Shown: piece after piece, positions 22,055-42,578 of the stretch
Layout of the letters: each line of letters begins with the position of its first letter
How positions within the stretch are numbered: the stretch's first letter is position 1
Assembly: GCF_900142765.1 (NCBI RefSeq)
Contig: NZ_FRCB01000001.1
Location: 744,001-808,000, forward strand
Length of the DNA stretch: 64,000 nucleotides
From: Roseovarius litoreus
GTDB lineage: Bacteria; Pseudomonadota; Alphaproteobacteria; Rhodobacterales; Rhodobacteraceae
Direction: 5' to 3'
Position numbers and translations under genes: made by a program
Notes under the pieces: generated by a model
Database searches by the model: none
Told to the model about the DNA's origin: nothing
What the model saw: only the letters and a program-made list of their open reading frames with translations

Positions 22055-22876
22055 ATGTTTCAGAAAGTTTCCCCCAGAAGTAACCTGCAATCGGCCCTCG
22101 CCATTCTGGAGCTGATCTATCACTCCACGGTGCGATCTGTCCGCAAGTCGCATGGCAACGCGTTCTTCGCGATCCTCAACAACATGTTGCAGGCCGTCAT
22201 CTTCGTCATGGCGTTCTACCTCATGTTCTGGATGCTCGGCATCAAGGGCGCGCGCATTCGTGGCGATTTCCTTTTGTACATGATGTCGGGAGTTTTCCTG
22301 TTCCTGACGCATATCAAGGCGCTTGGCGCGGTGGTCGGGGCCGAAGGGCCATCATCACCGATGATGCAGCATGCGCCGATGAACACGGTCATTTCGGTCG
22401 CCTCCGCGGCACTGGGGGCGCTTTACATTCAGGTATTGTCGCTTTTCGTGATCCTGTTCGTGTATCATGTCGCCTTCACCCCTTTCGAGGTGTCGCAGCC
22501 CTTCTCGGCCTTCGGCATGCTGGTTCTGGCGTGGTTCACCGGGGTGGCCATCGGGCTGGTGCTGCTCTCGATCAAGCCTTGGTTCCCGGCTGTGGTCGGA
22601 CTCATCACCATCGTCTATCAGCGCGCCAACATGATCGCGTCGGGCAAGATGTTCGTGGCCAATTCGCTGCCGCCCTTCATGCTCAAGATGTTCGACTGGA
22701 ACCCGCTGTTTCACGCCATCGATCAATGCCGCGGCTTCACCTTCGTCAACTACGTGCCGCGCAATTCATCGCTGGAGTATCCGCTGATCGTCGGGCTGGT
22801 GTTCCTCATGATCGGGCTGATGGGCGAATTCTACACCCGCCAATACGCCTCGCGGAGCTGGGACGCCCGCCGCTGA
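22055..22876 (+). CDS. Polysaccharide export ABC transporter permease (KpsM/Wzm-like)
   Basis: The 273-residue protein is an ABC-2 type membrane subunit with about six hydrophobic segments (for example AVIFVMAFYLMFWML and LVVGLVFLMIGLMGEFY-like regions). It ends with the NPLFHAIDQCRGFTF stretch near its last membrane segment, typical of capsule and O-antigen exporters. No ATPase subunit and no KpsE/KpsD-type partner is encoded nearby. It is transcribed away from cysQ. Export of a Kdo-linked or sulfated polysaccharide is the likely role, inferred from family and context. Confidence 0.82.
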   Translation: MFQKVSPRSNLQSALAILELIYHSTVRSVRKSHGNAFFAILNNMLQAVIFVMAFYLMFWMLGIKGARIRGDFLLYMMSGVFLFLTHIKALGAVVGAEGPSSPMMQHAPMNTVISVASAALGALYIQVLSLFVILFVYHVAFTPFEVSQPFSAFGMLVLAWFTGVAIGLVLLSIKPWFPAVVGLITIVYQRANMIASGKMFVANSLPPFMLKMFDWNPLFHAIDQCRGFTFVNYVPRNSSLEYPLIVGLVFLMIGLMGEFYTRQYASRSWDARR

Positions 22877-26920: not shown

Positions 26921-26965
26921 TGCCCGGTTACTTTACCTGACAGCAAAGGGTTAATGCCCATCGGC

Positions 26966-27007
26966 ACCGACGTGATACCGACGCAATACCGACGTGATAC
27001 CGATGCG
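26966..27007 (+). repeat. Array of four 11-bp repeats upstream of radC
   Basis: Copies read ACCGACGTGAT, ACCGACGCAAT, ACCGACGTGAT and a partial ACCGATGCG, with no spacers, so the motif recurs about once per helical turn. The array lies between the dnaJ terminator and radC, ending 53 bases before the radC start. A matching four-copy array lies at 41539-41580. It is presumably a protein-binding site. Confidence 0.75.
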
Positions 27008-27022
27008 CTTTTCGGGCCGCTG

Positions 27023-27038
27023 TTAACGCTTTTCTAAC
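27023..27038 (+). promoter_or_regulatory. Candidate CtrA-type site before radC
   Basis: TTAA, seven bases, then CTAAC matches the CtrA consensus TTAA-N7-TTAAC at all but one position. It ends 22 bases before the radC start. Competence genes including radC belong to CtrA-dependent regulons in Rhodobacterales, so the placement is plausible. A single near-match of this size can arise by chance. Confidence 0.35.
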
Positions 27039-41470: not shown

Positions 41471-41538
41471 GAGAAAGCGGAACTTTCCTGCGACCGCTCT
41501 CGTAACCCTTTGCCCGAGCTCCCCGATCGGTGCGCGGC

Positions 41539-41580
41539 ACCGACGCAATACCGACGTTATACCGATGTAATACCGACACG
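41539..41580 (+). repeat. Array of four 11-bp repeats upstream of the rimP operon
   Basis: Copies read ACCGACGCAAT, ACCGACGTTAT, ACCGATGTAAT and a partial ACCGACACG, head to tail. The motif and copy number match the array before radC, and both have CGGC just before the first copy and a GTTAAC some 20-30 bases after the last. Relative to rimP transcription the array is inverted compared with its orientation at radC. It lies about 70 bases upstream of the -35 box. Confidence 0.75.
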
Positions 41581-41603
41581 CATTTTGCGCCGGTCCGACG
41601 CCG

Positions 41604-42578
41604 TTAACCCTCTCGTGCCAGCCGCGTCATCACCTTGACCAACTCCGCGCTGATCCCCGGCTCAGAGAGGGCATGACCCGCCACGGGGATCATCCGCAAA
41701 CTGGCATTCTGCCAACGCTCCGCCAGCGTATGCGCAGCGGCAGGCGGACAGATCATGTCATAGCGCCCTTGCACGATCGTGCCGGGAATATGGGATATTT
41801 TGCCAATCTGATCAATGATTTGACCATCATACTCCAGAAAGCCGCCATTGATGAAATAGTGGTTTTCCAGTCTGGCAAAGGCCCGCGCGTAATCCGGCGG
41901 GCTATCACCTCCCGCCCCATTGGACTGCACCGTCGCCAACGCATTTTCCCAGGCAGACCAGGCCTTGGCAAAGCGGATCTCCTGCGGCCGATCTCCGGAA
42001 AACAGGCGTCGGTTATAGGCCGCGATCATGTCGCCGCGCTCATCCTCCGGCACAAGCTCTTGAAATCTCGCCCAAGTTTCCGGCCAGAACCGCCCGGCAC
42101 CCCCGCCATAGAACCAGTCAAGCTCGGCCTGCGTCATGGTGAAAACACCCCGCAAGACCAGATGCCTTGCCCGATCCGGATGGGTCTGAGCATAGATCAG
42201 GGCAAGCGTGGCGCCCCAACTGCCTCCGAAAACGATCCAGTCATCTATCATTAACGCTTCGCGAATACGCTCGATATCGGCCACAAGGTGCCACGTCGTA
42301 TTTGCCTCAACACTGGCATGTGGGCGTGATCTGCCGCACCCGCGCTGGTCGAACAGGATGATTCGGTAAATATTCGGATCGAAATACCGCCGCATCGCCG
42401 GGCTGCATCCGCCTCCCGGCCCGCCATGCAACACCACAACGGGCAGCCCATCGGGTTGGCCCGACTGTTCCACGTATATCTCATGCCCATCGCCCACATC
42501 CATCATGCGCCGGTCGAACGGTTCGATCGGCGGATGCAGGTACTGAACTGCGCTCTTTTGATCCGAGAATTTATCCAT
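41604..42578 (-). CDS. pip: Proline iminopeptidase
   Basis: This alpha/beta-hydrolase (peptidase family S33) removes N-terminal proline. The 324-residue protein has the oxyanion motif [18 protein letters not shown], the nucleophile serine in [27 protein letters not shown] and a C-terminal histidine in [10 protein letters not shown]. It is divergent from ubiG with a 48-base gap that must hold both promoters (CCTCTATATAGG-like sequence at about 42583-42597). Confidence 0.93.

Follow-up and report, generated by a model that had tools for sequence, protein, structure and literature searches.

Direct repeats of ~11 bp that lie on one helical face and are read by one protein are the hallmark of ParR/parC and other iteron arrays, each found at a single plasmid locus. 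Among the Alphaproteobacteria, GANTC sites belong to the CcrM system and TTAA-containing sites to that of CtrA; we know of no 11 bp array in either regulon. To our knowledge, few polar landmarks of bacterial chromosomes have been described, and these (KOPS, Chi and the Tus/Ter sites) are short single motifs.

In one account, whose strain list includes Paracoccus denitrificans and C. sphaeroides (formerly Rhodobacter sphaeroides), the polarity of KOPS (FtsK-orienting polar sequences) is reported to switch at dif in most of the replicons examined (PMC13342612). REPs are described as palindromic (PMC2817692). The array described here lies between dnaJ and radC in a 64,000 bp stretch of the Roseovarius litoreus genome (contig NZ_FRCB01000001.1, positions 744,001 to 808,000), the whole of which is referred to as the window. 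It resembles KOPS in being polar along the ori-ter axis, but KOPS is a single 8 bp motif, GGGNAGGG, the array unit is ACCGACGNNAT, and both are present in array-bearing genomes. Like REPs and BIMEs, it is dispersed, intergenic, present in tens of copies and patchy among genomes; unlike them, it has no predicted pairing, is polar, and in its full form has fixed helical spacing. With the ParR/parC iterons it shares direct repeats of ~11 bp on one helical face, which one protein may likewise read, but the element occurs at 54 chromosomal places and was not found on RepC-bearing contigs. The GANTC and GTTAACC blocks of its full forms recall CcrM and CtrA sites, but here they are secondary blocks at a fixed distance from an 11 bp array.

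Among the papers listed by full-text searches of open PMC, none was recognised, from titles and the starts of abstracts, as describing the array, consistent with the original prediction, in which no described site with this sequence was known, and six array strings had no occurrence in the same full text. We infer protein binding and a function for what appears to be a previously undescribed polar site of the main chromosome.

Results

Two arrays in the window

The array upstream of radC consists of three perfect 11 bp units and a degenerate fourth (26966-27009), much as first described, and was assigned a period of 11 and 3.5 copies by Tandem Repeats Finder. The dnaJ stop (26864) lies to its left and the radC start (27061) to its right. 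The second intergenic site of the original prediction was recovered at 41539-41582, 14,573 bp away on the same strand, between genes that by eye are rimP-like and proline iminopeptidase-like; in genome G031, a site is likewise found between the orthologues of these two genes. The features, in window coordinates, are as follows.

26952..27024 (C1:770952-771024), + strand: radC element, match to positions 29-101 of model R1, E = 4.9e-14
26966..26976, + strand: array unit 1 at radC, ACCGACGTGAT
26977..26987, + strand: array unit 2 at radC, ACCGACGCAAT
26988..26998, + strand: array unit 3 at radC, ACCGACGTGAT
26999..27009, + strand: array unit 4 at radC, degenerate, then TTT, ACCGATGCGCT
27022..27038, + strand: box before radC, GTTAACGCTTTTCTAAC
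41520..41609, + strand: second element, match to positions 24-114 of model R1, E = 1.9e-14
41539..41582, + strand: second array, ACCGACGCAAT ACCGACGTTAT ACCGATGTAAT ACCGACACGCA

Both elements represent array-core forms that lack the GANTC block described below, the second containing GTTAACC with its TTAA at +65. A two-unit pattern allowing three mismatches matched six times in the window against 0.15 expected, and a three-unit pattern four times against none across 200 dinucleotide shuffles; in the 3.93 Mb genome, the two-unit pattern with at most two mismatches matched 120 times and its reversed control 0 times. The claims that the repeats are not random and that their units lie one helical turn apart are both borne out; the cooperative binding of a single protein that was also proposed may apply. 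Separately, window positions 22619-22769 (- strand) match the Rfam family RF02645 Cis2_sRNA (Ruegeria cis2 sRNA) with 99.5 bits.

A composite element

The number of units is nearly fixed: among 51 R. litoreus arrays, 35 have four and 13 have five, so that 48 have four or five, and on this ground a variable-number tandem repeat was rejected. These 51 arrays leave out one that departs from the regular expression used (L041) and two sites on contigs C8 and C9. Unit 1 ends in GCGAT in 28/51, unit 2 in GTTAT in 17/51 or GTGAT in 14/51, and unit 3 in GTGAT in 22/51 or GCGAT in 12/51. Unit 2 varies between genomes, with AAAAT in 12 of 20 arrays of G016 and ACC-based forms lacking GAC in G006.

Full forms are composites of ~126 bp in which the array is the core and is accompanied, at fixed distances, by GTTAACC blocks and a GANTC. 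Across 174 elements, TTAA to the left of the array was found at -28 to -26 in 45 and at -38/-37 in 10, and to the right at +53/54 in 21 and at +65/66 in 50, such that the alternative positions differ by about one helical turn. On the right, 63/174 elements have GATTCG or GAGTCG, most often at +72 to +75 (51 elements), and 13/174 have its reverse complement; no 85 bp left flank contains the motif itself. Similarly, 57 of 163 elements have a GANTC starting between +68 and +79, a stretch in which each of six control patterns was found in 1-5 of the 163; within a window placed upstream, GANTC itself was found in five. All four bases were observed at its N (T in 44, A in 7, G in 5 and C in 1 of the 57). 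The composite is incomplete in most elements: 106/163 have no GANTC at the fixed place, and the TTAA counts above amount to 45 at the main left position and 71 on the right among 174 elements.

No base pairs were predicted by RNAalifold across 57 elements, and no Rfam match at gathering score was found at arrays from 10 sources, on which grounds a structured RNA or terminator was rejected; a REP was likewise rejected, there being neither a palindrome nor predicted pairs. From its sequence pattern, the composite could be the imprint left by a protein complex bound along a single helical face.

Copies across the genome

Model R1, of 126 positions, was built from 57 elements, 20 of them from R. 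litoreus, six of 63 elements having been removed by hand ahead of alignment A1. It matched at least 54 sites in R. litoreus at E <= 6.1e-9, 20 of which helped to build it and so match by construction, with the next match reaching only E = 0.005. By hand count, 29 of the 54 match nearly end to end and 25 in part, both window arrays being among the latter. Site counts are lower bounds, as at most 97 or 150 candidates were scored per genome.

No predicted gene contains any of the 51 arrays read, with overlaps of 2-32 bp at a gene end in three cases. The suggestion of a dispersed family is upheld. Their neighbouring genes are co-directional at 35, convergent at 11 and divergent at four, with one array near a contig end. 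A scan of contigs returned at least 108 stretches, from Roseovarius, Salinihabitans, Silicimonas, Pseudooceanicola, Boseongicola, Shimia, Sedimentitalea and other genera among the matches listed, and the one match looked up taxonomically was from the Rhodobacterales; among the matches listed, two of 111 arrays are inside predicted genes. The string TTAACCNNGATTCGC is found at sites in 6/6 R. litoreus and 20/21 G016 places, and once across 16 site-less genomes.

Individual copies are partly conserved and partly turned over: 28 of 32 locus pairs with related nearest genes retain side and orientation (a raw count, set against no null), compared with an array at 3/30 radC loci and 6/30 loci of an acetyltransferase gene. 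The latter six, as judged by eye, include that of R. litoreus and three with a variant form; arrays with altered units 1 and 2 were found at this same locus in G006, G012 and G034 (L279, L299, L306 and L298). Spacers between the blocks appear by eye unrelated among copies, so that no young copy is evident besides one tandem duplication, at positions 1988-2310 of locus L066, where two near-identical elements lie 281 bp apart. In locus L046 (~1970-2015), a second short tandem repeat, ACCGACCTTCGC, abuts the array between genes that by eye are mraY-like and murD-like.

Distribution among genomes and replicons

Among 36 genomes of the same group, R. litoreus included, 12 have 25-92 sites at E <= 0.001, eight have 1-10 and 16 have none (all lower bounds), indicating that the element is dispensable. 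Of 24 genomes from other families, one had a match, a single one to the pattern with one mismatch.

Contigs bearing the plasmid replication protein RepC are present in four of five genomes examined and are free of sites in all four (C11 of R. litoreus, C2-C4 of G016, C2-C5 of G034 and C2 of G031). The sites are on C1 in 92/92 cases in G016, 52/52 in G034 and 34/34 in G031, compared with an expectation off C1, from rounded genome sizes, of ~11 in G016 and ~6 in G034, and too few to tell in G031. R. litoreus sites are found on C1-C6, C8-C10 and C12, and G007, which has no RepC, carries 57 on C1 and 13 on C2. A 38 nt query had no matches in 72,556 plasmid records, irrespective of genus, or in 50,697 phage records, and a full element gave only short plasmid matches with E >= 0.4. 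In viral contigs, 13 stretches matched the two-unit pattern, one having four units beside a gene that by eye resembles a host ribosomal one.

Spacing is weakly regular over all R. litoreus contigs (CV 0.73 vs 0.91, p 0.04), with 10 gaps below 20 kb against 12.9 expected (p 0.19). Strong regularity, as indicated by C1 alone (p 0.00035), was rejected in view of the all-contig value and because short gaps are not rare. The same CV test gave 0/20,000 simulations in G034, 0.007 in G007, 0.33 in G016 and 0.98 in G031. The sole spacing feature common to these four genomes is a deficit of gaps below 15 kb (observed/expected 1/9.1 in G034, 7/20.6 in G016, 6/14.6 in G007 and 0/4.6 in G031).

Orientation toward the origin

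Read as ACCGACG, the arrays mostly point toward the replication origin. Five genomes each have two exact copies of parS 1.9 kb apart, which were identified by a consensus and are taken by us as marking the origin region, and those of R. litoreus (C1:816738 and 818628) adjoin ParA-, RsmG- and MnmG-like genes (by eye). A sharp change-point in GC skew at window ~55500 (C1:799500) is ~17 kb from this pair, and the origin is probably nearby. The nearest sites on both sides of parS face it in 5/5 genomes, and 185 of 250 arrays point toward it (binomial p 1.6e-14 if independent), including 62/82 within 500 kb and 15/19 within 100 kb. This count used C1 alone for R. litoreus and G007 (15 and 57 sites), and in the four genomes besides R. 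litoreus C1 was taken to be circular, its terminus lying across from parS. When orientations were split into two arcs chosen from the data, the agreement was 43/52 in G034, 69/92 in G016, 42/57 in G007 (weak) and 26/34 in G031 (not significant), with p <0.001, 0.003, 0.03 and 0.36 from 1000 permutations. This polarity, the larger composite and the absence from RepC-bearing contigs are properties beyond those originally predicted.

Local skew and KOPS

Orientation tracks the local GC skew better than it does the chromosome arm (185/250), 48 of 51 R. litoreus arrays being on the locally C-rich strand. Likewise, 97 of 106 contig-scan arrays among the matches listed have C-rich surroundings in array orientation (loci of at least 3 kb, three units required, 46 R. 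litoreus arrays included). In the R. litoreus loci, 112 genes share the direction of the array and 108 oppose it, and skew is negative in both groups (-0.043 and -0.114), so the polarity is not one of gene direction. In G016, 12 of 16 arrays picked for opposing the regional trend sit in locally reversed skew, in some cases slight, while 4/4 typical arrays have the expected skew.

Between 400 and 845 kb of R. litoreus C1, four-fold sites show a skew that switches from one domain of ~45-100 kb to the next, whichever strand the genes are on, and 8/9 array sites there follow the domain. Changes of sign or strength over tens of kb, independent of gene strand, are also evident in pieces of G016, G007 and G031. 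The domain border at 710-714 kb lies within gene order that R. litoreus has in common with G021 and G031, and four-fold-site identity between R. litoreus and G031 is near saturation (0.39, compared with 0.29 if independent), the order of R. litoreus, G021 and G031 having been judged from this identity alone; a simple recent inversion is therefore no explanation, and the reading of domain borders as recent inversions is unsupported at this one. The collinear, array-less G003 shares the near-origin skew flip, which is weak in the array-less G013 and absent in G021; on the strength of G003, the idea that arrays cause all skew domains was rejected for this flip. Flipped arrays in related loci were also rejected as proof of reselection, as there are four departing pairs, one non-adjacent and one with a skew of ~0.

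Of 152 KOPS in pieces of R. litoreus, G007, G034 and G031, 104 point ori to ter, the split being 66:31 in stretches of expected skew and 38:17 in those of opposite skew; in G031 alone the ratio is 6:11, against the overall trend. In an array-less genome (G003 C2:1000001-1200000), GGGNAGGG is split 45 to 5 by strand. As the arrays track local skew while KOPS track the arm, array polarity may not be read against the present direction of replication.

The radC locus

The original prediction raised the possibility of a site conserved at radC, or of a regulon. Only 3/30 radC loci carry an upstream array (3/8 among those of genomes with at least 25 sites), and no functional theme was seen by eye among array neighbours; neither idea is supported, and a radC or competence regulon was rejected on both counts. 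A TTAA-N-TAA box, which we take to be CtrA-like, precedes radC in 20/30 loci (L081-L110). Since it does so whether or not an array is present, the box at 27022..27038 is probably part of the radC promoter rather than of the element. With some fifty intergenic, mostly origin-facing copies on the main chromosome, the array looks like a landmark for chromosome handling rather than a radC switch.

Discussion

Our preferred reading, to which we assign a probability of roughly 0.45, is that the array forms the core of a polar protein-DNA site dispersed over the main chromosome in many roseobacters, where it would act as a landmark. Four or five 11 bp units on one face of the helix, with GTTAACC and GANTC, are a candidate footprint of a multi-subunit complex. 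The site may be a polar landmark for a machine moving along the origin-terminus axis, such as an SMC loop extruder, the replisome or a translocase, and the GANTC may tie it to the timing of replication. By analogy with the polar boundaries formed by CTCF, a more elaborate version can be envisaged, though it is distinctly unlikely: proteins arrayed along both chromosome arms would act on a moving SMC or replication machine from a single side, stopping or loading it, hemimethylation of GANTC would provide a switch after passage of the fork, and the fast-changing unit 2 would reflect coevolution with the protein.

The main rival is an old element inserted with a lagging-strand preference, that is, a non-autonomous mobile or repeat family of REP- or MITE-like type inserting between genes, for which the blocks would be transposase sites and the polarity a record of insertion. 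The patchy presence among 36 genomes and the turnover at radC and the acetyltransferase gene are as expected of such a family, as is the way in which polarity goes with local skew, the arrays keeping even to skew that is locally reversed. It is nonetheless unlikely, because the lack of predicted RNA pairing implies that there are no hairpin ends, the element is absent from the examined RepC contigs and its 38 nt query from the plasmid records, and the seemingly unrelated spacers offer no young copy beyond the one tandem duplication. Close pairs are also rarer than expected in G034, G016, G007 and G031, but not so in R. litoreus.

That the units are phased half-sites for a transcription factor controlling adjacent genes, as a regulon, is improbable. 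Units one helical turn apart would suit such a role, and at some loci, for example radC, the array precedes a gene start; however, convergent neighbours outnumber divergent ones both in R. litoreus (11 vs 4) and among the contig-scan loci listed (25 vs 13), the neighbours by eye lack a theme, and orientation follows skew rather than gene direction.

It is quite improbable that array orientation and local skew share a cause other than forks from oriC, for instance a locally different direction of replication or a long-range process that begins at the arrays. The skew domains at 400-845 kb of R. litoreus C1, present in the genes of both strands and followed by 8/9 sites, would fit such a cause, as would KOPS staying ori to ter through the same region and a 710-714 kb border inside shared gene order. 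Against this, the near-origin flip in G003 shows arrays to be unneeded there, part of the pattern can be put down to old inversions whose skew relaxes slowly, and we know of no second origin.

An FtsK-orienting (KOPS-like) or Chi-like site, which the polarity along the replication axis and chromosomal location might suggest, is highly improbable, for the motif differs, GGGNAGGG itself exists separately and runs mostly from ori to ter, with the 45 to 5 split in the 200 kb G003 piece, and 25-92 sites of 44-126 bp would be too few and too long for either.

Conclusions

If the array is indeed the core of a polar protein-DNA site, a large, phased and mostly origin-facing site in a marine group may give access to how some bacteria mark the direction of their chromosome arms. 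Furthermore, as the arrays track local skew whereas KOPS track the arm, comparing the two could provide a test of what GC skew and polarity record.
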